From contig NZ_CP040764.1 in assembly GCF_004683865.2 (NCBI RefSeq), positions 186,001-250,000 of the forward strand: a stretch of DNA of 64,000 nucleotides, given 5' to 3'. Within the stretch, counting starts at the first letter, position 1; each line of letters opens with the position of its first letter. Shown here one piece after another: positions 1,950 through 43,307 of this stretch. A program made the translations under genes and the position numbers. The stretch is from Paracoccus liaowanqingii (GTDB lineage Bacteria; Pseudomonadota; Alphaproteobacteria; Rhodobacterales; Rhodobacteraceae). A model generated the notes under the pieces. The model searched no databases and was not told the origin of the DNA. It saw only the letters and a list, made by a program, of their open reading frames with translations.

Positions 1950-1986
1950 CGCGCCGGACAGAGTTCAAGAAAAAATGGAGGACAAG

Positions 1987-2328: not shown

Positions 2329-2340
2329 GTTCAGAACCAA

Positions 2341-2396: not shown

Positions 2397-2404
2397 CGCC
2401 TTGT

Positions 2405-3852: not shown

Positions 3853-3876
3853 GGGACGGATCCTTGCGGTCGGAGG

Positions 3877-4767: not shown

Positions 4768-4842
4768 GCAGTCCCCCCGGTCCCGGGTCCATCTGTGCGG
4801 GAAGGCGGCGCGCAGGGCAAGCCCCTCGCCCGCAGGCCCTCC

Positions 4843-5616: not shown

Positions 5617-5625
5617 GGGCGGGCC

Positions 5626-7059
5626 TCACGCATTGCGGGCACCACCCGCCGAGGCCTGGCGGTCGGCCTCGGGCAGCCTGACCTGACGGCAGATCTGGTT
5701 CAACGCGCCCTTGAGCCCCTCTTCCAGCGTCGGGTGGTAGAAGGGCAGCAGCAGCATGTCGGCCGCGGTGGTGCCGGACTGCACCGCCCAGACCAGAAGA
5801 TGCGACAGATGCTCGGCCCCGGGGCAGCACAGCTCGGCCCCGGTCAGGCGGCCCTGTGGGTCGGCGTAAAGGACGACCAGCCCCTCGGCCCGCGCCTCGG
5901 CCCGGGCGCGGCCCTGATCGGAATAGTCGCTGCGCGCGATGATCGTGTCGTCGCCGGGCGCGTCGCCCACCTGCGCCAGCGGCGGATCGGTGAAGGTCAG
6001 GGTGAAGGGCGTGCTGCGATGCCCGGGCCGCACGCGCGGATGGCAGGCGGCGTTGCGCCCGGCGATCTCGCCCTCGGTCGAGGCCTCGTGCAGCAGCGGC
6101 ACATCGGCATCGGCGTCGCCCGCGATGAAGATGGCACTGCCGCCGCAGCGCATCGTGTCGCGGTCGAAGACCGGCGTGCCGTGTTCGTCCAGATCCAGTC
6201 CCGACGCCGCCAGATCCAGATCGTCCAGCAGGGGCGCCCGGCCCGTCGCGACCAGAACGTGGCTGAAGACCGCATGGCCTTCGCTGTCGCCGCTCCAGTC
6301 GAGGCGGATGCCCTGCGGATCGGCGCGGGCCTCAGTGTCGACGCCCAGGCACAGGGTCAGGTCGCGGCCGACGGCGCGGGACAGCGCGTCGTGGATGTCA
6401 TCCTCGCGCGCCTTGCCAAGCCGCGTCTCGTGGTCGAACAGCGTCACCGCGACGCCGAGGCGCCCCATGGCCTGCGCCAGTTCCAGACCGATGGGACCGC
6501 CGCCGATCACCGCCAGGCTGTCGGGCAGATCAGGCAGCTCGAACAGCGTCTCGTTGGTCAGGATGCGCGGGCCCAGATCGCGGAAGGGCGCCGGCACGAC
6601 CGCGGCCGAGCCGGTCGCGATGACCACGGCCTTGGCCTCGACCCGGCGTCCGTCCTCCAGCATCAGGGTCGCAGGCCCGGTGAAGCGGGCGCGCCCGGTG
6701 ATGGCCGTGTCGGGGGGCAGGTCGTCGAAGCTTTCGCGCGTGAACTCGACGAAGCGGTCGCGTTCCTCGCGCAGTCGCGCCATCACGGCGGGACCGTCGA
6801 TCTGCACCGATCCGGACTGCACGCCGAAGACCGGCGCGCGGCGTGCATCATGGGCCGCGCGCGCCGCGACGATCAGCAGCTTGGAGGGCATGCAGCCAGT
6901 ATTGGCGCAGAGCGTGCCGCGAAACTCGGGGTCGATCAGCAGGGTGCGGGCGCCATGTTCGCGGGCCGACCGTTCGGCGGCGATGCCGGCGGTGCCGGCG
7001 CCGATGACGGCCACATCGCAGATCAGGTCGGGGCGGGCGGCCTCGGGCAGATCACGCAT
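5626..7059 (-). CDS. FAD-dependent disulfide oxidoreductase, dihydrolipoyl dehydrogenase-like
   Basis: A 477-residue class I pyridine-nucleotide disulfide oxidoreductase. It shows the FAD-binding GAGTAG near residue 20, a redox pair Cys51/Cys56 in CANTGCMPSK, the NAD(P)-binding GGGPIGLELA, a second FAD motif (IFIAGDADAD) and the C-terminal HPTLEEGLK with the catalytic His-Pro. Family members reduce lipoamide, glutathione or mercury; no E2/E3 partners are nearby, so it is probably a stand-alone dehydrogenase of the Lpd/soluble transhydrogenase-like group. It is first in the minus-strand run towards dgoK. Substrate is unresolved. Confidence 0.85.
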   Translation of the reverse strand: MRDLPEAARPDLICDVAVIGAGTAGIAAERSAREHGARTLLIDPEFRGTLCANTGCMPSKLLIVAARAAHDARRAPVFGVQSGSVQIDGPAVMARLREERDRFVEFTRESFDDLPPDTAITGRARFTGPATLMLEDGRRVEAKAVVIATGSAAVVPAPFRDLGPRILTNETLFELPDLPDSLAVIGGGPIGLELAQAMGRLGVAVTLFDHETRLGKAREDDIHDALSRAVGRDLTLCLGVDTEARADPQGIRLDWSGDSEGHAVFSHVLVATGRAPLLDDLDLAASGLDLDEHGTPVFDRDTMRCGGSAIFIAGDADADVPLLHEASTEGEIAGRNAACHPRVRPGHRSTPFTLTFTDPPLAQVGDAPGDDTIIARSDYSDQGRARAEARAEGLVVLYADPQGRLTGAELCCPGAEHLSHLLVWAVQSGTTAADMLLLPFYHPTLEEGLKGALNQICRQVRLPEADRQASAGGARNA

Positions 7060-7239
7060 GGGCCACCGCCACGCAGGCCAAGGATGGATGCCGGGCGAGA
7101 CCGCCTGCGTGAACGGAACGGAGAGGTGCGCGGATCATCCGGATGGCCTTTGGGGTTGTTCACAGCCACAACCGGCCCGCCCCCCGCGCGTTCCCTGCCG
7201 CGCCATCACGCGCGCGTGTGCCGCCCGCAGCGCCGCCCG

Positions 7240-7998
7240 TCAGGTGCCCTGCGCGGCTGCTAGTCCTTTGGCGATGATCGGACCCGTCGGGCGCCCGGTG
7301 GGCGATCCGCCCTCGGGCTCCAGCGTGATCTCGTAGAGCTGCGCGTCCGTGGGGCGGGGCAGGTCGGGACCGGCCAGGCGCGCGGCACTTGGCCCCTCCA
7401 GCACGCCAAGCGAGCGTGGCCCCATCTCGGCCGAGGGCAGCGTCCAGGCCTGGATCGAGAAGCCCTGCGGCACCTCGACATCCGAGACGAAGCGGATCTG
7501 CGCGGTCTCGTCGCCGTAATCCTCGATCACCGCGCGGGGCAGGCCCTGATCGTCCAAGAGCACGGCGACCACCTGCGGCGCGGGCGCGGGCTGCAACCCG
7601 GCGCCGCCAAGGCCAAGCGCGACGCCCAGGACCAGCGCCGCCGCCAGCCCCGCCAGCCAGCGGCGCGGGGCGGAGGGCAGGTTGGCGGGCTGCGCCGGGC
7701 GCATCGTCGGATCGCCCGACAGCCCGGGCGGGACCGCGGCGGGCGCCAGATCCTGCGCGGCGTCCTGCGGGGTCTCGGCAAGCTGCAAACGCAGCCGGTC
7801 CGCGAAGCCCTGGGGCAGGGGCAGCGGGGTCGCGGACTGGTCCAAAGGCAGCAGCTGGTCGCGCAGGCGGGCCACCTGGGCGGCCAGTGCCGGGTCGCGG
7901 ACCATCAGCGCCTCGAACAGCTGCGCCTCGGCCGGGGTCAGCAGGCCCAGGGCATGGTCGTCGGCATGGCCGGTCAGGTCGTCCTGAAGCGGGTTCAT
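7240..7998 (-). CDS. Membrane-anchored anti-sigma factor (RskA type)
   Basis: A 252-residue protein with a cytoplasmic anti-sigma head (HALGLLTPAEAQLFEALMVRD), one transmembrane helix (WLAGLAAALVLGVALGLGG) and a periplasmic RskA C-terminal domain (QAWTLPSAEMGPRSLGVLEG). It would sequester the ECF sigma factor encoded immediately upstream until a periplasmic signal triggers release. A longer open frame exists to 8157, but the ATG at 7998 overlaps the sigma stop codon (ATGA) and begins with the expected head sequence MNPLQDDL. No zinc HxxxCxxC motif is seen. Confidence 0.88.
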   Translation of the reverse strand: MNPLQDDLTGHADDHALGLLTPAEAQLFEALMVRDPALAAQVARLRDQLLPLDQSATPLPLPQGFADRLRLQLAETPQDAAQDLAPAAVPPGLSGDPTMRPAQPANLPSAPRRWLAGLAAALVLGVALGLGGAGLQPAPAPQVVAVLLDDQGLPRAVIEDYGDETAQIRFVSDVEVPQGFSIQAWTLPSAEMGPRSLGVLEGPSAARLAGPDLPRPTDAQLYEITLEPEGGSPTGRPTGPIIAKGLAAAQGT

Positions 7999-8576
7999 GA
8001 CAGGCACTCCCTCAGCGAGGCCAGCCCGCGCCGGATCCAAGATTTCGCTGTGCCGAGCGGCACGCCCTGCCGGGCCGAGATCTCGCCATGGCTGTAGCCC
8101 GCGACATGGGCCAGAAGGATCGCGCGGCGGCTTGGATCGTCCAGCGTGTCCAGGCATTCGCCAAGCCGCCCGGTCCCGGCCAGCAGCTTCCAGTCGTCAT
8201 CGGGCTGCAGGTCCTGGCGGGCCTCCTGCATGCGGGTCAGGTCCTCGGGGGACAGGCTGGCCAGCCGCTTGTCGTCGCGCAGGATGGTCAGGCAGCGGTT
8301 GCGCAGCACGGCATAGATCCAGCCGCGCGCCGATCCGCCCGCCCGGTCCTGCTGGGGCGCCTTGCGCCAGACCTGCACCATCGCATCCTGCAGCGCCTCC
8401 TCGGCCAGGTCGTGACGGCCCAGGATGCGATAGGCCACGCCCAGAAGCTGCGGCCCCTCGTGCTGCAGGATGACGTCGATCCCCTCGGGGCGACCTTCGG
8501 CGCAGGCGTCCAGCGCCTGTTCCAGATGGCGTCTTGGCTGATCGTTCACGATGTCCCCCCGGCGTGTCGCGGCCAT
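7995..8576 (-). CDS. ECF sigma-70 factor paired with RskA-type anti-sigma
   Basis: A 193-residue extracytoplasmic-function sigma factor. Region 2 is visible as LLGVAYRILGRHDLAEEALQ with the following VQVWRKAP, and region 4 as YSHGEISARQGVPLGTAKSW (DNA-binding helix) ending in IRRGLASLREC. The start at 8576 is ATG; a GTG at codon 10 (8549), preceded by a G-rich stretch, would give MNDQPRRHLEQ and is an equally good start. It is divergent from the DUF4394 gene, whose upstream region carries a candidate ECF promoter. The signal sensed is unknown. Confidence 0.9.
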   Translation of the reverse strand: MAATRRGDIVNDQPRRHLEQALDACAEGRPEGIDVILQHEGPQLLGVAYRILGRHDLAEEALQDAMVQVWRKAPQQDRAGGSARGWIYAVLRNRCLTILRDDKRLASLSPEDLTRMQEARQDLQPDDDWKLLAGTGRLGECLDTLDDPSRRAILLAHVAGYSHGEISARQGVPLGTAKSWIRRGLASLRECLS

Positions 8577-8643
8577 CCTGACCCGAAGCCGCCATGGGGG
8601 AAACCCCGTCCCGGGCCGAAGCGAAGATTTTTTGATTTTTTCT

Positions 8644-8671
8644 GCATCCGGTTGTGCGGATGCCGCGTCAT
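8644..8671 (+). promoter_or_regulatory. Candidate ECF promoter overlapping an inverted repeat
   Basis: GCATCC (8644-8649) and CGTCAT (8666-8671) are separated by 16 bases, an ECF-like -35/-10 pair reading toward the DUF4394 gene. A perfect 7-bp inverted repeat (GCATCCG at 8644-8650, CGGATGC at 8657-8663) overlaps the -35. It lies in the divergent region next to the sigma gene, so it is a plausible target of that sigma factor. This is a visual assignment. Confidence 0.45.
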
Positions 8672-8732
8672 CGGGTCAAGGGACGGCGAAACCGCCGCCC
8701 GCCACAGGAACCCGAACGGAAAGGAACACCCC

Positions 8733-9515
8733 ATGTTTCGCATCACCGCCGTCTCCGCCTCTGCACTCGCCCTTTCGGTCGCCACGGCCGCTGCCGCCAC
8801 CGGTGTCGGCCTGACCGACGACCGCACGCTGGTCATGTTCGACACCGAGACGCTGGAGGTCACCGGCACGATGGAGGTCGAGGGCGTCGACCGCCTGCTG
8901 GGCATCGACCTGCGCCCGTCGAACAACACGCTGGTCGGCGTCACCGACGACATGCGCATCGTGACGATCGACCCCGCCACGGGCGCCGCCACCGACCTGT
9001 CCACGATGGACACCCCCCTCGAGGTCGGCGACATGCCGGTGATCGTGGACTTCAACCCGATGGCCGACCGCCTGCGCTTCATGACCGGCACCACGAACCA
9101 TCGCGTGAACGTGGACACCGGCGAGGTCACCGTCGACGGCAGCCTGAACTGGACGCCCGAGGACGAGAATTCCGAAGCCGCCCCGATGATCGCCGCCGCC
9201 GCCTACATCAACAGCTACGGCACCCCCGAGGCGACCGCGATGTACAACATCGACGCGGGCCTGGGCGCGCTGCTGCAGCAGACCGCCCCCAATGACGGCA
9301 CGCTGGCGACCATCGGCATGCTGAACGTCGAGGATGCGGGCGAGGCGATGGCCTTCGACGTGCAGACGGACGACCAAGGCGTGAACATGGCCTGGCTGAT
9401 CACGAACAACATCATTCACTCGGTCGATCTGGAGACCGGCGCGGCCACCGCCGCCGGCGAGATCACCGGGGTCGAGGGAGAGATCCGCGACCTGACCGTG
9501 ATGCCCGCGATGTAA
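8733..9515 (+). CDS. Secreted DUF4394 beta-propeller-like protein
   Basis: A 260-residue exported protein. Residues 1-22 form a Sec signal peptide (ITAVSASALALSVATAAAA). The rest matches DUF4394: repeated blocks such as LVMFDTETLEVTG, LLGIDLRPSNNTLVGVTDD and VIVDFNPMADRLRFM, a pattern seen in propeller-like domains. Function is unknown. An AAGGAA element at about 8720 supports the ATG at 8733; the longer upstream frame is noise. It is divergently transcribed from the sigma/anti-sigma pair and followed by a strong terminator, so it is monocistronic and probably a member of that sigma regulon (inference). Confidence 0.88.
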   Translation: MFRITAVSASALALSVATAAAATGVGLTDDRTLVMFDTETLEVTGTMEVEGVDRLLGIDLRPSNNTLVGVTDDMRIVTIDPATGAATDLSTMDTPLEVGDMPVIVDFNPMADRLRFMTGTTNHRVNVDTGEVTVDGSLNWTPEDENSEAAPMIAAAAYINSYGTPEATAMYNIDAGLGALLQQTAPNDGTLATIGMLNVEDAGEAMAFDVQTDDQGVNMAWLITNNIIHSVDLETGAATAAGEITGVEGEIRDLTVMPAM

Positions 9516-9565
9516 GTTGCGGGCTGTGGCCCGGGCCGCGTGGCCCGGGACTGTTTGACCAGTTC

Positions 9566-9594
9566 AGGCGCATCCTTCGGGATGCGCCTTTTTT
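9566..9594 (+). terminator. Rho-independent terminator after the DUF4394 gene
   Basis: A perfect 10-bp stem (AGGCGCATCC with GGATGCGCCT), a TTCG tetraloop, and a T run to 9594, starting 50 bases after the stop codon. Confidence 0.92.
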
Positions 9595-9635
9595 CGTCGG
9601 ATGCCCTGCTAATCCTCGGATGCCTCGCGGGCAGC

Positions 9636-9667
9636 AAAAAGCCCGGCCCCGTCGCGGTGGGCCGGGC
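9636..9667 (-). terminator. Rho-independent terminator for the sorbosone-dehydrogenase-like gene
   Basis: Read on the minus strand, a 9-bp GC stem (GCCCGGCCC/GGGCCGGGC, plus-strand positions 9641-9649 and 9659-9667) is followed by five Ts (9636-9640). It lies 18 bases beyond the stop of the gene at 9685. Confidence 0.85.
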
Positions 9668-9684
9668 GGATCAGGGGACCCGGA

Positions 9685-11241
9685 TCAGTTCGCCGGGGCC
9701 GGGGCCGGGTCGGCCTGCGTCGGGGATGCGGGCAGGCTGTCGCGCGGCAGCGGCGCGGGCTCGGCAGGAGCGGGCTCTGCCGCGGCAGGGGCCGGGTCGA
9801 CGGCAGCAGGCGCCGGCTCCACGGCGGCGGTGGCCGCCGCCTCGAAGCGGTCGCTGTCGATGGGGCCGTCCGACACGGATCCATCGGCGGCGGCGACCCG
9901 CCAGACCGTGTTGCCTGCATCGTCCGCGACCAGCAGCGCGCCGGTCCCGTCAAGGCCCACGCCGACCGGGCGTCCGCGCACCTCGCCATCGACCAGGAAG
10001 TCGGTGACCACGTCCTGCATCATCCCGTCGGGTTCGCCATCGGTGAATGGGACGTAGGACACCTTGTAGCCATTGAAGACATCACGGTTCCAGCTGCCGC
10101 GCTGGCCCACGAAGGCGCCCGCGCCGAAGCCCTCGGGCATGGCCGAGCCGTCCGTGAAGACCAGCCCCAGGGCCGCGACATGGCTGGACAGCGCATAGTC
10201 GGGCGACAGGGCCGTCTCGACCAGATCGGGGCGGGCGGGGCGCACCCGCTCGTCCACGTGATCGCCGTAATAGCTGTAGGGCCAGCCGTAGAAGGCGCCG
10301 TCCTGCACCGAGGTCATGTAGTCCGGGACCAGATCGGGGCCCAGCTCGTCACGCTCGTTGATGACCGCCCACAGCTCGCCCGAGGTCGGGTTGAAGGTCA
10401 GCCCGTTCGGGTTGCGCAGGCCCGAGGCATAGATGCGCGAGGCCCCCGTCTCCCGGTCGATCTGCCAGATCGCGGCGCGGCCCTTCTCGGCCTCCATCCC
10501 GTTCTCGGCGGCGTTCGAGTTCGAGCCGACCGAGGCATAGAGCATTGTGCCGTCCGGGCTGAGCGCCAGGTCCTTTGTCCAGTGGTGGTTCAGCGGCCCG
10601 CCAGGCAGGGGCGCCAGGGTGGTGGGCTGGGCGGTGATCGCCGTGTCGCCCAGAACATAGGGATAGGCCTCGACCGCATCGGCGGCGGCGACATAGAGCG
10701 TGTCGTCGATCCAGGCCAGGCCGAAGGGCGAATGCAACCCGGTCAGCAGGTCGTGGCGTTCGTCCACCACGCCGTCGCGGTCGGTGTCGCGCAGCAGTGT
10801 GATCAGGTTGCTGTCCGCCTGCGGCCCGCTGCCGCCGCCCGAGGCGAAGGCCATGATCCAGCCGCGGATGTAGTCCTTGGGCCGGTATTTCGGCTTCCCC
10901 TCGGGGGCGCGGGACTGCACGACCAGCACGTCGCCGTTGGGCAGGGTGTGGACGGTGCGCGGGTTGACCAGGTCGGTGGCATAGGCGGTGATCGCCAGCC
11001 CCTCGGCCACGGTGGGGGTCTGGCCCTCGGCCCAGCCCACGACCTCGGCCACGTTCACGCTTGGCAGCAGGTTGACGAATTGCGGCTCGGGCAGGACCGG
11101 GTCGGGGCCGATCTGGCTGGCGACGTCGAAGGCATCGGCGGGCGCATCCTGCGCCATGCCCGCATGGGGCAGGGCCAGCATCAGGACGGCGCCGCCGGTC
11201 AGCAGGATCGCGCGGTGCGACAGAACAAGGGGGGTCATCAT
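9685..11241 (-). CDS. Exported sorbosone dehydrogenase/PQQ-type sugar dehydrogenase family protein
   Basis: A 518-residue periplasmic six-bladed propeller protein of the sorbosone/glucose dehydrogenase family. A signal peptide (ILLTGGAVLMLALPHAGMAQ) is followed by LPNGDVLVVQSR, LRDTDRDGVVDERHDLL, LNHHWTKDLALSPDG, YASGLRNPNGL and FVGQRGSWNRD, which are typical of these quinoprotein-like dehydrogenases. The last 50 residues are a Pro/Ala/Glu-rich low-complexity tail. Tandem ATGs lie at 11241 and 11238; AGGAC eight bases ahead favours 11241. The next gene upstream, a four-helix membrane protein, commonly accompanies this family and may link it to the membrane. The physiological substrate is unknown. 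Confidence 0.88.
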   Translation of the reverse strand: MMTPLVLSHRAILLTGGAVLMLALPHAGMAQDAPADAFDVASQIGPDPVLPEPQFVNLLPSVNVAEVVGWAEGQTPTVAEGLAITAYATDLVNPRTVHTLPNGDVLVVQSRAPEGKPKYRPKDYIRGWIMAFASGGGSGPQADSNLITLLRDTDRDGVVDERHDLLTGLHSPFGLAWIDDTLYVAAADAVEAYPYVLGDTAITAQPTTLAPLPGGPLNHHWTKDLALSPDGTMLYASVGSNSNAAENGMEAEKGRAAIWQIDRETGASRIYASGLRNPNGLTFNPTSGELWAVINERDELGPDLVPDYMTSVQDGAFYGWPYSYYGDHVDERVRPARPDLVETALSPDYALSSHVAALGLVFTDGSAMPEGFGAGAFVGQRGSWNRDVFNGYKVSYVPFTDGEPDGMMQDVVTDFLVDGEVRGRPVGVGLDGTGALLVADDAGNTVWRVAAADGSVSDGPIDSDRFEAAATAAVEPAPAAVDPAPAAAEPAPAEPAPLPRDSLPASPTQADPAPAPAN

Positions 11242-31740: not shown

Positions 31741-32505
31741 TTATGTGGTTGCTTCGGCCTTTCGGGCGCGGCTTTGTCCGAGCCGATAACTGTCGCCGTT
31801 CATCTCGAGGATATTGACGTGGTGGGTCAGTCGATCGAGCAATGCGCCGGTCAGGCGTTCGGTGCCGAAGGTTTCAGTCCATTCGTCGAATGGCAGGTTG
31901 CTGGTGATCATCTTGGAACCGCGCTCATAGCGCTGAGAGATGAGCTCGAACAAGAGCTCGGCACCGGTCTTGGACAGCGGCACAAAGCCTGGTTCATCGA
32001 TGATGAGCAACTTGACGCCATCCAGCTGCTTTTGCAGGCGGAGCAGGCGGCGTTCGTCGCGGGCCTCCATCAGCTCGTTGACCAACGTCGCGGCGGTGGT
32101 GAAGCTGACCGCCATGCCCTTCTGACAGGCGGCCAGCCCCAGTCCGAGGGCAACATGGGTCTTGCCCGTGCCGCTCGGCCCGAGGACGATGACGTTCTCG
32201 CGCCGTAGGATCCATTCACAGCGGGCCAATTCCAGCACCTGCATCTTGTTGAGCTTGGGGATCGCCTTGAAGTCGAAGCTGTCGAGGCTCTTGGTTGTCG
32301 GGAACTTCGCGACCTTAATGCGTCGCTCGACCATCCGCCGCTCGCGGTCGATCAGTTCCAGTTCGACCAGGCGCGACAGGAACTGGACATGGTCCAGCCC
32401 TTCGGCGGCGCATTGGCGCGCAACCTTCTCATACTCCCGCAGGAACGTCGGCAGCTTCAGCGTTTTCAGATGGTGGGTGAGCAGGATCCTCGGGGCTTCA
32501 GTCAT
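31741..32505 (-). CDS. istB: IS21 helper ATPase IstB
   Basis: A 254-residue DnaC/DnaA-like AAA+ ATPase. Walker A is VLGPSGTGKTHVALGLG and Walker B KLLIIDEPGF; MITSNLPFDEWTETFG and the C-terminal RLTHHVNILEMNGDSYRL are typical. IstB assembles on target DNA and recruits the transposase. The start overlaps the istA stop by four bases. Intact. Confidence 0.95.
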   Translation of the reverse strand: MTEAPRILLTHHLKTLKLPTFLREYEKVARQCAAEGLDHVQFLSRLVELELIDRERRMVERRIKVAKFPTTKSLDSFDFKAIPKLNKMQVLELARCEWILRRENVIVLGPSGTGKTHVALGLGLAACQKGMAVSFTTAATLVNELMEARDERRLLRLQKQLDGVKLLIIDEPGFVPLSKTGAELLFELISQRYERGSKMITSNLPFDEWTETFGTERLTGALLDRLTHHVNILEMNGDSYRLGQSRARKAEATT

Positions 32506-33989
32506 GCTACATCTCCCGACAGCAGGGACATGTAGCTCGCCACGGATGTGGTCGCGACGTTGGCGCGCGGCAGGTAGGGGTAGACATCAAGGTCCAGCTT
32601 CGGCGGACGCCTTTCGACCTGACAGAGCACAAGGTGCTTAACGGCATCGAAGCTGACGGCACCCAGTTGCAGCGCCTTCTTCACAGCGGCGTGCAGGTCG
32701 TCGAGGCAGAAGGTCTCGAGCAGGCGTAAAACCTGAACATACTCGCGGCGTCCGACTTTGTTCATCCGCGCCTCCATCAGTCGGCGTAGGGTCGCGAACT
32801 CTGGTGGTAGATCCCACTCGGCCAGGGGCGCCGCCTGGTCCAGGGCGTTGATCTTGCGCTCGATGAGCGGAAGATAGTGCACCGGATCGAAGACCATGTC
32901 CTCGCGGTCATAGCAGCGGAGATGACGTGCGATGACCTCGCCACCGCAGCCGATCACGACCTCGGCGACATAGCCCCTGATCCAGACATCGCGGTGTCCG
33001 TAAGCGACCGGCACCGAATAGTCGTTGGTCCTGTAACGCACCAGCGCCTGCGAGCTGACCCGGCCAGTGGCCTGATCGCAGGCTTCGAACGGTGCGGCCG
33101 GCTGGTCGGACATCGCAGCCAGATCCCGCCCAAGGCGCTGGCCGATCGTCTCGGACTGGCCGCGCAGGACATCCCCCTGACGCCTGCGGCATTGCGCCTC
33201 CAGATGGGCGTTGAACGCGTCCCAAGTCGCAAACTGCGGGATCGGCACCATGAAGTTGCGGCGAGAGTAGCCAACCAAGCCCTCAGCGTTACCTTTGTCA
33301 TTCCCCTTGCCCGGGCGGCCGTAGCGGTCGCGGAACAGGTAATGCGACAGGAACCCGTTGAAGAGCGTGGCTCGCTGGCGCGCCCCGTCCGGCAGGATCT
33401 TCGCAACCAGGCAGCGGTCGTTGTCGTAGAGGACCGATGCGGGCACCTTGCCGAAGAATGCGAAGGCCTGGACGTGACCGTCAACCCAGGCTTCCGCGGT
33501 CGCCGCTGGATAGGCCCTGACATAACAGGCATCGCCGTGCGGAAGGTCCATGACGAAGAAATGCGCCTTCTGCTCGACACTGTCGATGATGGCCACCGCC
33601 TCGCCGAAGTCGGCCTGGGCATGTCCGGGCGGGTGTGCCAGCGGCACGAACATCTCGCGGCCGCGCCGTTCGCGCTCCCGCATGTAGTCCTTCACGATCG
33701 TGTAGCCGCCGGCGAACCCGTGCTCATCGCGAAGCCGCTCGAACACCCGCTTCGCCGTATGCCTCTGCTTGCGATGGACCTCCCGATCGCCCTCCAGCCA
33801 GCCGTCGATGATCCCGGTGTAGGCATCCAGCTTCGGCCGCTTCACAGGGGCCGTCCGCCGATATCCGGGCGGAACCGAGAACGTCATCATCTTGGCTACG
33901 CTGTCGCGCGCGATGTTGAAATGACGCGCTGCCTCGCGCTGGCTCATCCCCTCGGCACAGGCCAATCGCACTCTACGATACAAGTCCAC
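32502..33989 (-). CDS. istA: IS21 transposase IstA
   Basis: A 495-residue DDE transposase with an N-terminal helix-turn-helix (GMSQREAARHFNIARDSVAK), the catalytic core with Asp in HAQADFGEAVAII, Asp in VLYDNDRCLV and Glu in KGNAEGLVGYSRRNF, and a C-terminal beta-barrel segment (TNDYSVPVAYGHRDVWIRGY). No frameshift or stop was seen, so with istB the element may still be mobile if its diverged ends function. Confidence 0.95.
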   Translation of the reverse strand: MDLYRRVRLACAEGMSQREAARHFNIARDSVAKMMTFSVPPGYRRTAPVKRPKLDAYTGIIDGWLEGDREVHRKQRHTAKRVFERLRDEHGFAGGYTIVKDYMRERERRGREMFVPLAHPPGHAQADFGEAVAIIDSVEQKAHFFVMDLPHGDACYVRAYPAATAEAWVDGHVQAFAFFGKVPASVLYDNDRCLVAKILPDGARQRATLFNGFLSHYLFRDRYGRPGKGNDKGNAEGLVGYSRRNFMVPIPQFATWDAFNAHLEAQCRRRQGDVLRGQSETIGQRLGRDLAAMSDQPAAPFEACDQATGRVSSQALVRYRTNDYSVPVAYGHRDVWIRGYVAEVVIGCGGEVIARHLRCYDREDMVFDPVHYLPLIERKINALDQAAPLAEWDLPPEFATLRRLMEARMNKVGRREYVQVLRLLETFCLDDLHAAVKKALQLGAVSFDAVKHLVLCQVERRPPKLDLDVYPYLPRANVATTSVASYMSLLSGDVA

Positions 33990-35886: not shown

Positions 35887-36132
35887 GGACGGACGGGCGG
35901 GTTCGCCTGTTCATGCGGTGGCGCTGCCCCCGTGTCAACCGTTCCGGCGGGGAAGACGCGGCCCCTGTCGGCCACGGCACCGGCCCCTGCGGGTTTCGGC
36001 GGCGGTCGGGTGTCCGAAAGCCCCGCATGCCCTGATGCGGGCGGATGTCGCGAACGCCTGCGCTGTTTTCCGTCTCGGACGGATGGAAGGATGGCACCCC
36101 GACGGCCCGGAAAAAACAATCTGCACCCGCCC

Positions 36133-36159
36133 TGTAACACCGCCCGCATCCTTGGCGAT
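36133..36159 (+). promoter_or_regulatory. Candidate SigF-type ECF promoter of the bufferin operon
   Basis: In the 323-base gap between the divergent histidine kinase and bufA1, TGTAAC (36133-36138) and CGAT (36156-36159) are 17 bases apart, an ECF-like -35/-10 arrangement about 50 bases before the bufA1 start. The operon encodes its own ECF factor, so autoregulation is expected. The remainder of the gap shows nothing else I can identify. Confidence 0.5.
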
Positions 36160-36209
36160 CTGCCCTTCAGGAAGGTGCCTGACGCCCTTCCGTGATAGGG
36201 AGAACCGAC

Positions 36210-36515
36210 ATGACCGCAACGACCTCGCGCCTCGCCTTGGGCGCCACGCTGGCCTGTGCCATCGGCGCCATGGCCACGACCCCCGTGCAGGCCCAGGAGA
36301 TGGAGAAATGCTTCGGCGTCTCGCCCGCCGGGCAGAACGACTGCGCGGCGGGACCGGGAACGACCTGCGCCGGAACCTCGACCGTCGACTATCAGGGCAA
36401 CGCCTGGACCCTGGTCCCGGCGGGCACCTGCCTGTCGATGGAGCTGCCCGCTGCCGAGGATGGCAGCGCCCGCGCGGCCTCGCTGGAGCCGCTGTCCCGC
36501 GACATCCCCGCCTGA
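36210..36515 (+). CDS. bufA1: Bufferin-type precursor peptide, DUF2282
   Basis: A 101-residue exported peptide precursor. A Sec signal ([22 protein letters not shown]) is followed by a mature part with four cysteines, Cys34, Cys45, Cys53 and Cys74 ([30 protein letters not shown]), the DUF2282 pattern. In characterised bufferins an MNIO enzyme converts cysteines of such precursors to thiooxazoles and the product binds copper in the periplasm; metal choice here is inferred. GGGAGA precedes the ATG at 36210; an upstream in-frame codon at 36192 is less likely. The MNIO gene follows 74 bases later. Confidence 0.88.
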
Positions 36516-36588
36516 CCCCCGCCCAAGACCGGCCGGGCGCGACGCCGCGCGCGCCCGCCTTCCCCCCGAGGTCCCAAGGAGGATCGTC

Positions 36589-37431
36589 ATGACCCACCTG
36601 CCCCCGCGCGCCGGCGTCGGATTCAAGCCCGAGCATTTCGCGGCCATCCGCAGCGCCCCGCACCCGGTCTCGTTCTTCGAGATCCATGCCGAGAACTACA
36701 TGGGCGCGGGCGGGCTGCCCCATGCGCAGCTGACGGCGCTGCGGGCCGACCACGCGATCTCGGTCCATGGGGTGGGGCTGTCGATCGGCGGGGCGGACCG
36801 GCCCGACGCCGCGCATCTGATGCGGCTGCGGCGGCTCTGCACCCGCTACGAGCCCGAGAGCTTCTCCGAACATCTGGCCTGGTCCAGCCACGGGACGGAA
36901 TACCTCAACGACCTGCTGCCCCTGCCCTACACGCAGGAGACGGTGGACCGGGTCTGCGCGCATGTGGACGAGGTGCAGGACCGGCTCGGCCGCCGCATGC
37001 TGCTGGAAAATCCCGCGACCTACGTCCTGTTCGCGCAATCTGACATCCCCGAGACGCAGTTCCTGGCCGAGATCGCCTTCCGCACCGGCTGCGGGCTGCT
37101 GCTGGACGTCAACAACGTCTTCGTGTCCTGCACCAACCATCGCACCGATCCGCGTGCCTATCTGGACCGCTTCGCCATGGCCGCCGTGGGCGAGATCCAT
37201 CTGGGCGGGCACGATTCCGAGGACCTGCCCTCGGGCCCGCTGCTGATCGACAGCCACGGGGCGGCGGTGGCCGATCCGGTCTGGACGCTCTATGCCGAGG
37301 TGATCGCCCGCATCGGCCCCCGCCCGACGCTGGTCGAATGGGACAGCGACCTGCCCGCTTGGCCGGTCCTGGCCGCCGAGGCCGCCCGCGCCGACCGGAT
37401 CCTGACCCGGGTGCTTGCCCATGCCGGCTGA
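36589..37431 (+). CDS. bufB: MNIO-family peptide-modifying iron enzyme, DUF692
   Basis: A 280-residue TIM-barrel multinuclear non-haem iron oxidase. Conserved DUF692 motifs in order: [76 protein letters not shown] and [10 protein letters not shown], which provide the His/Asp/Glu/Asn metal ligands. It would oxidise cysteine side chains of BufA1 in the cytoplasm before export. AAGGAGGA lies ahead of the ATG at 36589. The downstream partner gene overlaps its 3' end, implying tight co-production. Confidence 0.95.
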
Positions 37432-38170
37432 GGTCATGGCCCGCTTTCGGGCCGCCCTGCGCGGCGGCGCCCTGCCGCCCGGCGTGACCGCGACCGACCC
37501 GACTGACGCCGCGCGCCGCTTCGACGTCTATCGCAACAACGTGGCCGTCAGCCTGTCGCAGGCCCTGGCCCGGCGCTTTCCGGTGATCCTGCGGCTGGTG
37601 GGCGAGGATTTCTTTCGCGCGCTGGCCCGGGAATACCTGGTGGCCGATCCGCCCCGGACGCCGGTGCTGGCGGAATGGGGCACGGGCTTCGCAGGCTTCC
37701 TGGCAGGCTTTCCGCCGCTGGCGCCGTGGCCGTGGATGGCCGATGTCGCGCGGATCGAGGTCGCGCGGGGCCGGGCCTTCCACGCCGCCGATGCGCGGTC
37801 CCTGGACCCGGCGGCGCTGGCGGGAACCGATCCCGCGCGCCTGTGCCTGCATCTGCATCCGTCGCTGGCGGTGCTGCGGCTGGATCACCCCGCCGTGTCG
37901 ATCTGGCGCCGCCATCAGCCGGGCGCCCCGGACCACCCCCTGCCCGCACTGCCCGAGATCGCGCTGATCCTGCGCGACCCCGGCTTCGACGTGCCGGTCG
38001 AGGCGATCCCCCCCGCCGATGCCGTCCTGATCGAGGCGCTGGCCGGCGGCGCCCCGCTGGCCGAGGCGGCCCTTGCGGCGCAGCAGGTCCAGCCCGGCCA
38101 CGATCCCGGCCCGCGCCTGGTCCGGCTGATGCGCGCGGGCACGATCGTCGAGGGGGTGAGCCCGTGCTGA
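37421..38170 (+). CDS. bufC: MNIO partner protein, DUF2063 (BufC-like)
   Basis: A 249-residue protein with the N-terminal DUF2063 domain ([59 protein letters not shown]), the proposed precursor-recognition partner that delivers the leader peptide to the MNIO enzyme. The C-terminal half ([20 protein letters not shown]) forms a second small domain. The ATG at 37421 overlaps the end of bufB; ATG at 37436 is an alternative. Its stop overlaps the GTG of the DoxX gene. Confidence 0.9.
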
Positions 38171-38597
38171 GCCGCTTCAACGCCCTGCCCGCCCGCATCC
38201 CCGCCGACCTGGTGGCGCTGATGCTGCGGGTCTTTCCGGCGCTGGTCTTCTGGCAATCGGGGCGCACCAAGGTCGACGGGCTGAGCATCCGGGAGGCGAC
38301 ATGGTTTCTCTTCGAACACGAATACGCCCTGCCGCTGATCCCGCCCAACGTGGCGGCAGTGCTGGCCACGCTGGCCGAGCACGCGCTGCCGGCACTGATG
38401 ATCCTGGGCCTGCTGACGCGGATCTCGGCCTTGGGGATGCTGGCGATGACGGCGGTGATCCAGATCTTCGTCTATCCCGGCGCATGGATCACGCATGGGC
38501 TGTGGGCGGCGGCGGCGCTGGCGGTCGCGGCGGGGGGCCGGGGCGGATCTCGCTGGATCACCTGCTGCGGCTGGACCGCGCACGGGGGGCGGGCTGA
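38164..38597 (+). CDS. DoxX-family membrane protein, frame broken at a G6 tract
   Basis: A four-helix DoxX protein ([59 protein letters not shown]) that starts with GTG at 38164 inside the bufC end. DoxX proteins regularly accompany bufferin genes and are thought to serve redox or export functions in the membrane. The normal C-terminus [18 protein letters not shown], ending with TGA at 38595-38597, is present but one frame over: the switch is at GGGGGG (38532-38537), where one more G would restore it. As written, the frame instead runs on into the CcdA-like gene. Confidence 0.8.
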
Positions 38598-38598
38598 G

Positions 38599-39330
38599 AT
38601 GGACCTGATCCTCGCCTATCTGGCCGGGCTTCTGACGCTGATCAATCCCTGCGTCCTGCCGGTGCTGCCCATCGTGCTGACCGCCAGCCTGGGCGCCGAC
38701 CCGCGCGGGCCACTGGCGCTGGCGGCGGGCCTGTCGGCGTCCTTCGTGACCCTGGGCCTGGGCATCGCCGCGCTCGGCCCGGCCATCGGGCTGTATCCCG
38801 AGGATGTGGCGCGGGTCGCGGCGCTGGTGATGATCGGCTTCGGCCTGGTGATGCTGACCCCAGCCCTGGGGCGCGGCTTTGCCACCGCCACGGTGGGGCT
38901 GGCGGTCGCCGCCAATGCGCAGATGCCGCAGGGCCGGGGCCGGGGCCGGGGCCAAGGCCGGGGGCTGCGGCAGGAATTCGCGGGCGGCGCGCTTCTGGGC
39001 GCGGTCTGGAGCCCCTGCATCGGCCCCACCCTGGGCGCCGCCATCGCGCTGGCCAGCGCGGGCCGGGACCTGCTGCGCGCGGGCGCGATCATGGCGGCCT
39101 TCGCGCTCGGCGTCTCGACCCTGATCCTGGCGGGGGCCTATGGCCTGCGCGGCCGGCTGCGCCGCCATGCGGGCCGGATGGCCCGCCTGTCCGCCCGCGC
39201 CCGCCCCGCCCTGGGCCTGGCCTTCGTCGCCGTGGGCGCGGCGCTGGCCACCGGCCTTCACCACCGGGCCGAGGCCCTGCTGATCGACCGCCTGCCCGCC
39301 TGGCTGATCGACCTTTCCGTCACCTTCTGA
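38599..39330 (+). CDS. CcdA-like thiol-disulfide membrane transporter
   Basis: A 243-residue protein with six hydrophobic segments. The paired redox cysteines appear as [11 protein letters not shown] near the N-terminus and [12 protein letters not shown] mid-protein, the two conserved Cys of CcdA/DsbD-beta proteins that carry electrons from cytoplasmic thioredoxin to the periplasm. A Gly/Arg/Gln repeat ([11 protein letters not shown]) encoded by GGCCGG-type repeats forms the central loop. It would feed the periplasmic thioredoxin encoded 16 bases downstream. With the upstream frame break, it may be translated as a DoxX fusion or from its own ATG at 38599. Confidence 0.9.
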
Positions 39331-39346
39331 CCCTCACGAGGACATC

Positions 39347-39757
39347 ATGAACCGTCGCACCCTTCTGATCTCTGCCGCCGCCCTGACCCTGGCCCCCGCG
39401 GCCCGGGCCTCGGATCGGGTCTTCTACACGCCGGGCTTGGCCGAGGCCGCCCTGGAGGCGGGCGAGACCGTCGTGCTGGATTTCTGGACCGACTGGTGCA
39501 GCACCTGCGCCGCCCAGCAGCGCGTCCTGGCCGCGCTGAAGGCCGGGAACCCGGATTACGAGGCGCATCTGCGCTTCATCACCGTCGATTGGGACCAGCA
39601 CGGGCGCGGTCCGCTGTCGCGCGCGCTGGCCATTCCCCGCCGCTCGACCCTGGTGGCGCTGAAGGGCCGGCAGGAGCTGGGCCGCATCGTCGCCGGCACG
39701 GCCCCGGACGACATCGCCGCGCTTCTGGACCGCGCGCTGCACGCCGCGCGGGCATGA
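39347..39757 (+). CDS. Periplasmic thioredoxin-fold protein
   Basis: A 136-residue exported protein with a signal peptide (RRTLLISAAALTLAPAARA, Tat-like RR but short) and a thioredoxin domain with active site FWTDWCSTCAAQQ. The cis-proline region is IPRRSTLVAL. Together with the CcdA-like protein it forms a periplasmic reducing pathway like the C-terminal DsbD module (inference); the likely client is the cysteine-rich bufferin peptide or its metal site. Its stop overlaps the start of the sigma-factor gene. Confidence 0.9.
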   Translation: MNRRTLLISAAALTLAPAARASDRVFYTPGLAEAALEAGETVVLDFWTDWCSTCAAQQRVLAALKAGNPDYEAHLRFITVDWDQHGRGPLSRALAIPRRSTLVALKGRQELGRIVAGTAPDDIAALLDRALHAARA

Positions 39758-40392
39758 CCCAAAGCCCGGATCTGGCGCAGCGCTGGCATTGCCCGGCTGC
39801 GGCAGGCCGGGTTACACTGCACGGGCGCGCGCATCCGCCAGAGGAGGCAGCCCTGGACGGCCAGACTGACTGGGACCTGCTGCTGGCACGGGCCAATTCC
39901 GGCGACGCGGCCGCCTTCCTGCGGCTTCTCACCAAGGTGACACCGCCCCTGCGCTGCCTGATCCGCGCCCGCGGGCGGGGCCTGCCGCCCGACCTGCACG
40001 AGGACATCCTGCAGGAGGTGCTGCTGGCCATCCATCTCAAGCGGCAAAGCTGGGCGCCGGGCAGCCCCGTCCGCCCATGGCTTTACGCGGTGGCGCGCCA
40101 CAAGGTCGTCGATGCCTTCCGGCGGCGCGGTCGCCGGGTGCATCTGCCGATCGAGGACGTGGCCGAGATCCTGGCCTCGGAGGCCGATCCCGCACCCCTG
40201 GCCGCGCATGATGCCGACCGGATGCTGGGGATGATCGACGCCCGCTCGGCCGCCTTGGTACGCGCGGTCCGGCTGGAGGGGCACAGCACCGAGGAGGCCG
40301 CGCAGGGGATGGGCCTGACGGCGGGCGCGGCCCGCGTCGCCCTGCACCGGGCCATGAAACGTCTGTCCGAGCTGGCAGAGAGGATGAAATGA
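39754..40392 (+). CDS. SigF-like ECF sigma factor
   Basis: A 212-residue ECF factor. Region 2 is LHEDILQEVLLAIHLKRQSW with PVRPWLYAVARHKVVDAFRR, and region 4 is VRLEGHSTEEAAQGMGLTAG with ARVALHRAMKRLSELAERMK. The start at 39754 (MTQSPDLAQ) overlaps the thioredoxin stop; about 30 extra residues precede region 2, and an internal start is possible. In Caulobacter a SigF/NrsF pair controls bufferin genes in response to metals; the same pairing here implies autoregulation of the operon. Confidence 0.9.
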   Translation: MTQSPDLAQRWHCPAAAGRVTLHGRAHPPEEAALDGQTDWDLLLARANSGDAAAFLRLLTKVTPPLRCLIRARGRGLPPDLHEDILQEVLLAIHLKRQSWAPGSPVRPWLYAVARHKVVDAFRRRGRRVHLPIEDVAEILASEADPAPLAAHDADRMLGMIDARSAALVRAVRLEGHSTEEAAQGMGLTAGAARVALHRAMKRLSELAERMK

Positions 40393-41030
40393 CGAACCGA
40401 CCCACGACCGAGGATCTGATCCACCGCCTGGCCACCGCCCCGCCCCCGGCGCGGCTGTCCGCGCGCGGGGCCACGGGCACGCTGCTGGGCGCGGCCGCCG
40501 CCACCGTGGGCCTGTTCCTGCTGCTGGTCGGTCCCCGCGCCGACCTTCTGCCCGCCCTGGCCGACCCCCAGGTCCTGGCGAAACTGGTCCTGCCCGTCGC
40601 GCTGTCGGTGCCTGCGCTGTGGCTGGCGCTGCGATCGGCCCGGCCGGGCGCGCGCCTGCCGCTCTGGGTGCTGGCGCTTCCGGCGCTGGTGGCCGCGGGC
40701 CTGTTCCTCGCCCGCCTCGTCCAGACCCCCCCGGGGCTGATCGCCCCCGGCATCCTGGGGCACAGCGCCGCCGCCTGCCTGCTGTCGATCACCGCCCTGT
40801 CCAGCCCGGCCATCGCCTTGGGCCTGACCCTATTCCGCCGCGGCGCCGCCCTGCGCCCGGCCCTGACCGGAGGACTGATCGGGCTTGCCGCCTCGGCCGG
40901 GGTGACGGCGGGCTACGCCCTGCATTGCAACGAGGATTCGCCGCTGTTCTTCACCACTTGGTACGGGCTGGCGATCCTGATCTGCACGACGGCAGGCGCT
41001 TTGGCCGGACGGCGGCTGCTGCGCTGGTAG
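40389..41030 (+). CDS. NrsF-type membrane anti-sigma factor, DUF1109
   Basis: A 213-residue protein with a short cytoplasmic head (TTEDLIHRLATAPPPARLSA) and six predicted helices, the DUF1109 architecture. Two conserved cysteine positions are seen in HSAAACLLSITAL and GYALHCNEDSPLFFTTWYG; in NrsF such cysteines are needed to sense metals. It would hold the SigF-like factor at the membrane until metal binds. The ATG overlaps the sigma stop by four bases. It is the last gene of the operon, with a 250-base convergent spacer beyond. Confidence 0.9.
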   Translation: MTNRPTTEDLIHRLATAPPPARLSARGATGTLLGAAAATVGLFLLLVGPRADLLPALADPQVLAKLVLPVALSVPALWLALRSARPGARLPLWVLALPALVAAGLFLARLVQTPPGLIAPGILGHSAAACLLSITALSSPAIALGLTLFRRGAALRPALTGGLIGLAASAGVTAGYALHCNEDSPLFFTTWYGLAILICTTAGALAGRRLLRW

Positions 41031-41282
41031 ACGGGCCGGCGGGGTGCTGTTCCCCGTGGCGACAGCCGGACACTCCTTCCACAGGTAAAACATCTCGATC
41101 CCCCCGCGCTGGCAGGTCGGAAAGCGGGCGCCCTTAGTGGCCGGGACGATCATGACGGGCGCGACCGCGACACCTGACTTGTCTGATCCGATCCGGCCCG
41201 GCAGATGATCCTGCCCCCGCGCACGGTCGATCCCGACCCCGTCGCGGGTATCGCGCCACGCCCCCCCCTGCGAACCGACCGC

Positions 41283-43307
41283 TCAGGCCCCGGCCAGCGT
41301 CCGGCGGAAGAACGCCGCCGTCAGCGCGATGTCGGTCGCGGCGCGGTCGCTGGTCTCGCCGCCGCCATGGCCGCCAGTCTCGCTGGTGCGCAGCATCACG
41401 TCCTGCCCCGCCTCCTGCAGCTTGAGCGCGAAGCGGCGGGCATGGGCGGGATCGACCCGGTCGTCATGTGCGGGGGCGTCGATCAGGATCGGCGGATAGG
41501 CGACCTCGGCTCGGGGCCGGACCTGATGCAGGGGCGAATAGGCGCGAAGGTAGGCGGCATCCTCGGGAATGTCCGGATCGCCGTATTCCTCGATCCAGGC
41601 CGCCCCGGCGGGATAGAGGTGAAAGCGCAGCATGTCGGTGACCGGCACATCGGCCTTGATCGCCCCCCAGTCCGCCGGGTTGCGCGTTGCCATCACCGCC
41701 GCCAGCAGCCCGCCGTTCGATCCGCCGACGAAGCCCACCCCGCCCGGCGGCGCGATGCCCCGCGCCACCAGATCCCGGGCCACGGCCACGCAATCGTCGA
41801 AGGAGGTCGGGCGCTTCGGCCCCATGGCCTGCCGGTGCCACGAGGGCCCGAACTCTCCGCCCCCGCGCAGATGGGCGACCGCCACGCCGATGCCCCGGTC
41901 CAGCAGCGCCGGGCCGTCGAACTTCAGATAGGGGGCGGGCATAGGCATGCCGTAGCCGCCATAGGCCTGCACCACGACCGGGACGGCCCCCTGCGCCACA
42001 GCTTTCGGCAGGGCCAGATGATAGGGCACCTGCGTGCCGTCCCCGGATCGTGCCTGCAGCAGATGCGCCTGCATGCCCGAGGCGTCGAAGGACGGCTTGG
42101 AGGATGCGACCAGATGGGGCTGCGGCGCCTTGGCCAGGGTGTCCAGGTCGATCCGGTACAGGCTTGGCGGCAGCAGCTGCCCCTCGGCCCAGATGTTCAG
42201 GCGCATGTCGCGCGCGCCCTCGGCATCCGGCTCGATTGCGTGCCAGAGGATCCAGACGGTCGACGCCTCGGCCGGCAGCGGCAGGTCGCGCAGCGGGCCT
42301 TCGGGCTGGCGCAGATCCAGGACCCGCAGCCAGGGCCGCAGGTCGTCATGCCCGGTCATCACCAGCCAGTCGCGCGTCATCAGCAGCTGGTTCGTCCCGC
42401 TGCGCGGACCCGGCACGAAGATCACCCGCTCCAGCGGCGGGCCGTCGAAACGGCGCAGGACGGTGGCGCCGGCGGGGTGGTCGCCATCCTCCTGCGGCTC
42501 CCACACGACGAAGCGGTCGTTGGCGAACTTAGGGGCCAGACGCGGCAGGTCCAGGACGACCCGCCGGCCGTTCTTCTCGACGGCCAGGGTGCTAGAATGG
42601 ATCGTGTGATGGGTCGACAGCAGCAGCGTGCCGTCACCCTCGCCCTCGCCCGGAAGATGGGAGGCCATGGCCTGGACATCGTCCGGCCCCGCCTCGAAGA
42701 TCACCGGCGCATCGTCCAGCGCGGTGCCGCGCGTCCAGGCGCGCACGGTGCGCGGCCACCCCGACCGGGTCGCGTGCCGGGGATGGGTGGCGGCGAAGAC
42801 CAGCAGCCGGTCGGGACCCTGCCAGGCGACCCACTGCCGGGCCAGCGGCGTCTCGAACCCGCCCGGGACGAAATCCCGCGCGGTAAGGTCGAATTCGCGC
42901 CCGACCAGCATGTCGGACCCGTCCAGCGACAGCATCATCATCGCCCGGCCCCGGTCCGGGCGGCCGACCGGGCCGCGCCAGGCCCATTCTTGCCCCGTCT
43001 CGCGGCAATAGGCATCGAGGTCGAAGACCGTCTGCCAAGGCGCATCGGGCGCCGGCGTCAGATCGTCGGGAATGCGCCGCCACAGGCCGCGCGGATGCTC
43101 TGCGTTCTGGTGGAAGTCGTACAGATGGCCGCCGCCCTTGCCGCAGAGGAACAGCTTGTCATCCTCCTCGAGGATGGCGCGCAGGCGCTGCCGGTCGGCC
43201 TCGAAGACCTCGTCATGCAGGCGCCGGGCGACCTCGGCATTGCCCTGCGCGACCAGCGCCGTCGAGCGGGGGGCCTCGGGATCGTCCAGGTCCAGATCGT
43301 CGGGCAT
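41283..43307 (-). CDS. Prolyl oligopeptidase-family (S9) serine peptidase
   Basis: A 674-residue cytoplasmic peptidase with an N-terminal beta-propeller and a C-terminal alpha/beta-hydrolase domain. The catalytic triad is Ser in GFVGGSNGGLLAAVM, Asp in APAHDDRVDPAH and His in ETGGHGGGE. VAHLRGGGEFGPSWHRQAMG is typical of oligopeptidase B/POP members. No signal peptide. It is convergent with the NrsF gene and has no operon partners. Confidence 0.93.
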   Translation of the reverse strand: MPDDLDLDDPEAPRSTALVAQGNAEVARRLHDEVFEADRQRLRAILEEDDKLFLCGKGGGHLYDFHQNAEHPRGLWRRIPDDLTPAPDAPWQTVFDLDAYCRETGQEWAWRGPVGRPDRGRAMMMLSLDGSDMLVGREFDLTARDFVPGGFETPLARQWVAWQGPDRLLVFAATHPRHATRSGWPRTVRAWTRGTALDDAPVIFEAGPDDVQAMASHLPGEGEGDGTLLLSTHHTIHSSTLAVEKNGRRVVLDLPRLAPKFANDRFVVWEPQEDGDHPAGATVLRRFDGPPLERVIFVPGPRSGTNQLLMTRDWLVMTGHDDLRPWLRVLDLRQPEGPLRDLPLPAEASTVWILWHAIEPDAEGARDMRLNIWAEGQLLPPSLYRIDLDTLAKAPQPHLVASSKPSFDASGMQAHLLQARSGDGTQVPYHLALPKAVAQGAVPVVVQAYGGYGMPMPAPYLKFDGPALLDRGIGVAVAHLRGGGEFGPSWHRQAMGPKRPTSFDDCVAVARDLVARGIAPPGGVGFVGGSNGGLLAAVMATRNPADWGAIKADVPVTDMLRFHLYPAGAAWIEEYGDPDIPEDAAYLRAYSPLHQVRPRAEVAYPPILIDAPAHDDRVDPAHARRFALKLQEAGQDVMLRTSETGGHGGGETSDRAATDIALTAAFFRRTLAGA

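Follow-up and report, generated by a model that had tools for sequence, protein, structure and literature searches.

A bufferin-1 operon of Paracoccus liaowanqingii with an accessory CcdA–thioredoxin arm that may keep its copper-binding peptide reduced

The periplasm is oxidising and can be loaded with copper, and the sulfurs of thiooxazole-bearing copper-binding peptides can form disulfides there; how, then, do such peptides remain active? The question is raised by an operon of eight genes in a 64,000-nucleotide stretch of Paracoccus liaowanqingii (contig NZ_CP040764.1, positions 186,001 to 250,000; hereafter the window), in which genes for a CcdA-type membrane electron carrier and an exported thioredoxin (Trx) are embedded in a bufferin-1 (Buf1) cluster. 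We propose that the eight genes form a bufferin-1 (captophorin) operon for copper defence and that its accessory CcdA–Trx pair, which we call the arm, keeps the thiooxazole sulfurs of the exported peptide reduced, an explanation that we prefer tentatively and to which we give just under an even chance. The sequences themselves show which genes are present and that a promoter motif precedes them, as well as that the arm forms a single clade, has diverged together with the operon and recurs elsewhere. The Buf1 core is ordinary and sigF-nrsF is already known; the reductive arm is what is new.

Gene content and control of the operon

All eight genes, from the DUF2282 gene to nrsF, lie on the forward strand within 36210-41030. 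Families were assigned with Pfam and NCBIfam profiles, comparing bit scores with the curated cut-offs (Table 1), and the order proposed in an earlier sequence-only reading of this DNA (DUF2282, DUF692/MNIO, DUF2063, DoxX, CcdA, thioredoxin, SigF-like, NrsF) was recovered with every family above its cut-off. The DUF2282, DUF692 and DUF2063 profiles, which that reading had named as the way to check it, matched at 85.3, 347.5 and 85.8 bits. Below cut-off in the profile scan were HvfC (56.8 bits, cut-off 142), HvfX (41.6, 80), NCBIfam AntiSigF_NrsF (68.2, 300) and NGO1945_C (17.7, 27). A single DUF2282 gene, bufA, was detected in the genome; its product has four cysteines in its mature part (34, 45, 53 and 74) and a fifth, Cys 16, within a signal-peptide region judged from a hydrophobic stretch at residues 8-26, as the earlier description of an exported four-cysteine peptide had it. 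The locus has two features expected of a Buf1 cluster, a DUF2282 precursor with a signal region and four mature cysteines, and a bufferin-type MNIO beside a DUF2063 partner. The genes are tightly packed: 73 bases separate bufA from bufB and 16 separate ccdA from trx, and there are overlaps of 11 bases at bufB-bufC, 7 at bufC-doxX and 4 at both trx-sigF and sigF-nrsF, in keeping with the claim that junctions from bufB onward overlap or are shorter than 20 bases.

The arm itself is made of two recognisable proteins. CcdA has two cysteines in total, 18 and 140, one in each half of the membrane domain, as is characteristic of the CcdA/DsbD transmembrane family. Trx has the thioredoxin fold with a WCxxC motif, is of the short soluble type, begins with a twin-arginine-like N-terminus and has no cysteine besides the WCSTC pair. 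It lacks the cis-proline, that position being Ser in 24 of 25 aligned rows and Gly in one (with E. coli TrxA as reference). Against profiles of the TlpA/ResA/CcmG group it scored below cut-off throughout (dsbE 21.2 bits, cut-off 123; TlpA 16.2, 230; ResA-type 13.2, 170).

Upstream of bufA there is a motif that differs by two substitutions from the GTAACC-N16-CGAA recognised by Caulobacter sigma-F (PMC3511200), and in its strict form it has a single match in the window. The looser form GTAAC-N16..18-CGW occurs within 200 bases upstream of bufA at 48 of 57 loci with a linked sigF and at 5 of 46 without one, with letter-shuffle controls giving 14/1140 and 16/920, respectively. Across the whole genome the motif shows no enrichment, with 7 matches where the reversed control has 21, and we therefore confine claims about a SigF regulon to the bufferin operon. 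Neither sigma-70 promoters nor intrinsic terminators were detected in 36000-41300. The sensor cysteines of NrsF are present in the window protein, and the pair is kept in 10 of 10 relatives examined; in Caulobacter the equivalent pair, C131/C181, governs release of sigma-F (PMC3511200). With an extracytoplasmic function (ECF) sigma factor, an NrsF that bears the cysteine pair and a sigma-F-type promoter motif all in place, the operon is predicted to be switched on by its own SigF/NrsF, and the profiles and motif bear out the earlier claim of a bufferin-type operon with its own sigma and anti-sigma factors. A complete Buf1 operon carrying its own SigF/NrsF is strongly supported by these sequence features.

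The same reading had treated doxX and ccdA as separate genes, which does not hold in this assembly, where no stop closes doxX and its frame runs on through ccdA (38164-39330). In all six relatives compared at the junction (L087, L072, L074, L076, L071 and L031) doxX is closed by a stop of its own; where ccdA is present, as it is in five of them, this gene starts immediately after it. The frame is offset from the six by one base near the end of doxX, and ccdA retains its own ATG at 38599 despite the open doxX frame. The offset may be genuine, in which case DoxX and CcdA are fused and DoxX ends differently, or it may stem from a fault in the assembly. Overlooked in that reading, besides the frame fusion, was a second possible target of Trx, the sensor cysteines of NrsF.

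Both genes flanking the operon are on the opposite strand; the upstream one encodes an HWE histidine kinase and the downstream one a protein of the prolyl-oligopeptidase family. An IstB (IS21) gene and a Mu-transposase-C gene also lie upstream of the operon (window 31741-33989).

Table 1 Features of the operon, in window coordinates, with profile scores in bits and cut-offs in brackets
Feature	Position	Strand	Basis
Sigma-F-type promoter, GTAACA-N16-CGAT	36134..36159	+	76 bases before bufA ATG
bufA, DUF2282 bufferin-1 precursor, 101 aa	36210..36515	+	Pfam DUF2282 85.3 (22.4)
bufB, MNIO bufferin maturase	36589..37431	+	PF05114 MbnB_TglH_ChrH 347.5 (25); NCBIfam MNIO_BufB 379 (310)
bufC, DUF2063 partner protein	37421..38170	+	Pfam DUF2063 85.8 (27.2)
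doxX	38164..38597 (38597 is the end predicted from relatives)	+	Pfam DoxX 55.6 (23.6)
ccdA, CcdA/DsbD-beta-type membrane electron carrier	38599..39330	+	DsbD_TM 45 (27.1); DsbD_2 32.9
trx, exported thioredoxin, WCSTC	39347..39757	+	Pfam Thioredoxin 25.4 (23.5)
sigF-like ECF sigma factor	39754..40392	+	Sigma70_r2 34.2 (24); Sigma70_r4_2 34.1 (25.7)
nrsF, anti-sigma factor, sensor Cys pair 130/180	40389..41030	+	Pfam NrsF 151.6 (26.8)

Distribution and inheritance of the arm

Within the family Rhodobacteraceae, where linkage was judged for the BufB places listed (down to about E 2e-105) and a close CcdA was taken as one with E at or below 2.5e-31, a BufB match is present in 211 of 295 genomes and a close CcdA in 106, unlinked in 102 and linked in 4. 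Among the matches listed, these four, in which CcdA adjoins BufB by coordinates, are G000, G216, G274 and G275. The genus set of 125 genomes has BufB matches in 36, several of them weak, and a close CcdA in 9, linked in 3. The best 80 bufB loci in a collection of genome contigs, which are close relatives and include some repeats of already retrieved loci (for example L058/L084), hold the pair in five cases: L072 (P. saliphilus), L073, L074, L076 and L087 (P. gahaiensis). Linked Rhodobacterales loci total nine, and in eight of them the pair sits between doxX and sigF; at L073 a DUF3179 gene (8944-10032) separates doxX from ccdA, and no sigF-nrsF match lies within the 14.8 kilobases (kb) of that locus. 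Regular-expression matches to WCxxC outside the eight linked loci were apparent wrong-frame reads and were discarded by eye, in agreement with the hidden Markov model scan.

The eight linked CcdA copies form one clade (support 100/99, the bootstrap not fully settled), as do the eight linked Trx copies (95/87), with L073 falling apart from them. Over the eight loci, distances between CcdA proteins track those between BufB proteins (r 0.886, reached in 0 of 5000 permutations), and so do those between Trx proteins (r 0.910, 2 of 5000), a pattern that common species history alone could explain. Ratios of nonsynonymous to synonymous substitution between the window and P. gahaiensis are 0.14 for trx, 0.36 for ccdA and 0.22 for bufB. 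On a BufB-BufC-DoxX tree of 33 rows, the presence of the arm requires five changes, three of them forced by well-supported branches, which we read as probably one main gain with subsequent losses and a separate event in L073.

The operon also occurs in the same order without the arm, in P. haematequi (L071), on plasmids of P. aestuarii and P. marcusii and in G026 (L052), and many sigF-nrsF bufferin loci among the best 80 lack it. Five Paracoccus plasmids match the operon across 61-72% of the query, and the two inspected have no ccdA-trx; a plasmid-borne copy of the arm was sought in a plasmid collection, in which CcdA has no match of at least 60% identity (62 records, all lower). Conversely, the pair is found away from bufferins. 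Of 17 unlinked CcdA copies that were retrieved, 16 have Trx beside CcdA (the stretch for the other, L048, stops at a contig end), and no bufferin gene matches were found within the retrieved stretches. Since it is absent from close relatives and also present apart from bufferins, the arm is an accessory that has been gained and lost and is not part of the core. In these 17 loci, mostly read by eye, the standalone pair often has AMP nucleosidase, HU and EamA genes for neighbours, and in one case it belongs to a cco cluster; at this last locus, L043, a close relative of the pair is flanked by ccoNOP and ccoGHI within a cbb3 oxidase cluster (1972-11077), and ccoGHI ends with a copper-translocating ATPase gene. 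An origin from SoxV/SoxW was considered and dropped, no sox genes being recognised by eye in the 17 loci (two of them were also profiled, with families other than sox).

Such standalone pairs invite the explanation that the arm is a general periplasmic system for thiol repair or copper delivery within the SigF regulon, serving many targets in the way of Scs/DsbD or TlpA-like systems and not the bufferin in particular. It would account for the 102 family genomes with a standalone pair besides the 4 linked ones and for the pair inside the L043 oxidase assembly cluster, and there is a parallel in Caulobacter, whose copper-induced SigF regulon contains a sulfoxide reductase pair for periplasmic repair (PMC8224329). 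We nevertheless regard it as unlikely, because adjacency to bufferin genes repeated in separate lineages, a Buf2-like cluster included, exceeds what such a system needs, and because genomes with a standalone pair carry bufB more often than others (86/102 against 121/189, p 2e-4, with kinship ignored).

That repeated adjacency is seen outside the family. Of 397 genomes drawn from across the phylum, 176 have a BufB match, and the outside-family set comprises 121 bufB places, all listed except the last three rows. In profile scans, three of the 121 loci (L165, L167 and L221) carry a CcdA–Trx pair of the same family no more than 4 kb from bufB and on its strand, and their Trx proteins likewise have Ser at the cis-proline position. 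L165 has trx-ccdA, then Sco1, PCuAC and Sco1 on the opposite strand (2594-4342), then bufA-bufB-bufC-doxX-sigF-nrsF. In L167, from another class, bufA-bufB-bufC-doxX is preceded by trx-ccdA, a gene for an exported-looking NPCA-repeat peptide and a DUF6969 gene. L221 reads as a DUF255 thioredoxin-type gene, a six-cysteine Cys-Lys peptide that fits the description of Buf2, bufB, bufC, one uncharacterised gene and trx-ccdA, with no SigF or NrsF match in its cluster. Another three of the 121 (L272, L275 and L279, of one genus) have a different CcdA together with a thioredoxin-type match that coincides with a DUF255 protein; at L272 a six-cysteine peptide is surrounded by proteins that profiles identify as CcdA, DoxX, DUF255, MNIO and DUF2063; L279 was profiled for CcdA alone, and L275 enters by its scores only. 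These counts leave out L243 (a CcdA-redoxin fusion 3.8 kb upstream, with intervening genes), L222 (CcdA beyond nrsF) and L200, L248, L263 and L283 (thioredoxin-type matches only).

Several side observations belong to these loci. By eye, genes similar to those at L165 adjoin the bufferin operon of L174, from the same genus, and in L226/L227, from one genome of the family of L165, the pair and the bufferin genes are on separate contigs. The NPCA-repeat peptide of L167 (3391-3657, 88 aa) looks exported and is without a Pfam match; it is possibly a second metal peptide. DUF255 (Thioredox_DsbH) proteins of more than 600 aa adjoin the six-cysteine Buf2-like clusters at L221 (8890-10917) and L272 (7116-8957), and similar-looking DUF255-type proteins occur at L263 and L279. 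L224 (4710-7158) looks decayed: what is left on one strand is part of a BufB, along with interrupted matches to CcdA and Trx.

When the outside-family rows are included in the CcdA tree, the bufferin-linked label (given to L223, at a contig end, by inference) needs five changes, only two of them forced by well-supported branches. Recurrence of the arm with bufferin clusters in separate lineages is therefore likely from these sequences. The pair might still be a passenger with no functional tie to the bufferin, as its patchiness, the five gains or losses on the operon tree and its rarity (3/121 outside-family loci) would suggest; this is made quite improbable by distances that follow those of bufB, by purifying selection, by genes that overlap or nearly touch and by recurrence elsewhere. 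The arm is a real, under-described accessory that recurs with bufferin clusters.

What the arm would act on

In the explanation we prefer, and by analogy with the known families, BufB and BufC would convert the central cysteines of BufA, 45 and 53, to thiooxazoles in the cytoplasm; in the exported peptide the thiooxazole sulfurs would bind copper and the outer cysteines, 34 and 74, would form a disulfide; and CcdA would hand electrons from cytoplasmic thioredoxin to the exported one. We infer that the exported Trx may then reduce the disulfides or mixed disulfides that copper or a periplasmic oxidase would make on the thiooxazole sulfurs, or alternatively mis-paired outer cysteines of BufA, and that BufA would thereby stay competent to bind and re-bind Cu(I). 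Published work offers precedents for the separate elements: in Buf1 the two central cysteines become thiooxazoles and the outer two a disulfide (PMC12452194), two thiooxazoles of bulbicupramide can form a disulfide that is reducible by tris(2-carboxyethyl)phosphine (PMC12538549), fontiphorin aggregated and its authors blamed possible disulfides (PMC12668002), and Sco and CoxB are reduced by TlpA so that they can be loaded with copper (PMC9145763). The pair is itself associated with copper, in the cbb3/copper ATPase setting of L043 and near Sco1 and PCuAC in L165.

Other points weigh against reduction of the peptide. The arm-less close relatives named above keep the whole operon, so the peptide there functions without the arm or uses another reductant, and within its own family the pair mostly occurs without bufferins. 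The bulbicupramide precedent was obtained with purified peptide, which belongs to a different captophorin group and has its cysteines spaced differently, and our literature search gave no experiment on any bufferin operon that bears a CcdA–Trx pair. The earlier suggestion of a need for reduction, at the peptide in the periplasm or at its copper site, has indirect support: it is favoured by the single clade of eight CcdA proteins, their co-divergence with bufB, recurrence in another family and another class and the reducible thiooxazole disulfide of a related peptide (PMC12538549), and disfavoured by pairs away from bufferins and close relatives without the pair.

The position of the arm would suit an action on NrsF just as well. 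In that case the exported Trx could re-reduce the periplasm-facing pair 130/180, restoring the hold on SigF and ending the response by redox negative feedback. The arm is directly upstream of sigF-nrsF in eight of the nine linked Rhodobacterales loci, trx overlapping sigF in the window; both cysteines are kept in the window and the ten relatives; and in Caulobacter the replacement of either one raises expression of sigma-F targets (PMC3511200). Against NrsF as the sole role, the arm is present without a SigF/NrsF match at L073 and in the Buf2-like cluster of L221, and it lies upstream of bufA, away from sigF, at L165 and L167; many sigF-nrsF bufferin loci, moreover, lack the arm. We judge this explanation unlikely, too, though a serious rival.

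A bolder version of the peptide-directed role, which we hold to be rather improbable, would make the thiooxazole pair a redox switch and Trx a thioredoxin-type copper chaperone, with a peptide that carries copper again and again instead of soaking it up once, and with an arm that is a recurrent, overlooked accessory of both bufferin types. Disulfide formation would release copper and reduction by CcdA–Trx would allow another round. A cis-proline opposite the CxxC normally keeps metals off it; Trx, without this residue and with its twin-arginine-like start, might be exported folded and hold or pass on metal.

If the arm does maintain the peptide, cluster definitions built on precursor, MNIO, DUF2063 and DoxX alone overlook a functional module. 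The co-inherited, recurrent CcdA–Trx pair would provide a genetic handle on peptide activity and a test of whether bufferins are reusable, and it also offers a test of the NrsF cysteine pair as a redox sensor with its own reset.

Comparison with known systems

The Buf1 core and SigF-NrsF have been described, and additional conserved genes are reported in bufferin clusters at extremely low proportions, some oxazolin clusters having molybdo-oxidoreductase and ferric-reductase genes (PMC12452194). The main text of that paper has no mention of thioredoxin, CcdA, DsbD or DUF255, and the texts of PMC12668002, PMC13097082 and PMC12538549 have none of thioredoxin or CcdA; the CcdA of PMC12257519 is a toxin-antitoxin protein. 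Our literature search found no paper on a CcdA–Trx arm in bufferin clusters, with supplements and the original bufferin paper outside its scope, where a table entry may exist. For Cupriavidus metallidurans a redox role has been proposed for GigT/GigP (PMC10304878).

In the captophorins fontiphorin, oxazolin and bulbicupramide, an MNIO and a DUF2063 partner likewise put thiooxazoles on cysteines (PMC12668002, PMC12538549); unlike the window BufA, their peptides are made of EGKCG repeats. CcdA modules with TlpA, ResA or CcmG likewise pass electrons from CcdA to an exported thioredoxin-fold protein, in known cases for the assembly of copper or haem sites (PMC9145763, PMC5742617). The window Trx differs from these in being of the short soluble type with Ser at the cis-proline position, and the partner locus is a cluster for a ribosomally synthesised and post-translationally modified peptide.

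MsrPQ of Caulobacter, which acts on methionine sulfoxide, is unlinked and consists of proteins different from those of the arm. It is, as here, a periplasmic reductive system that shares its regulator with a bufferin (PMC8224329). Closest are the Buf1 clusters of Caulobacter vibrioides and of C. metallidurans (gigPABT), which are alike in the bufA-bufB-bufC-doxX core, SigF/NrsF control, promoter motif and cysteine layout (PMC12452194, PMC3511200, PMC10304878). Unlike them, the window operon has ccdA and the gene for an exported thioredoxin inserted after doxX and ahead of sigF, and its sigF-nrsF genes are co-directional with the core and stand at the end of the operon.

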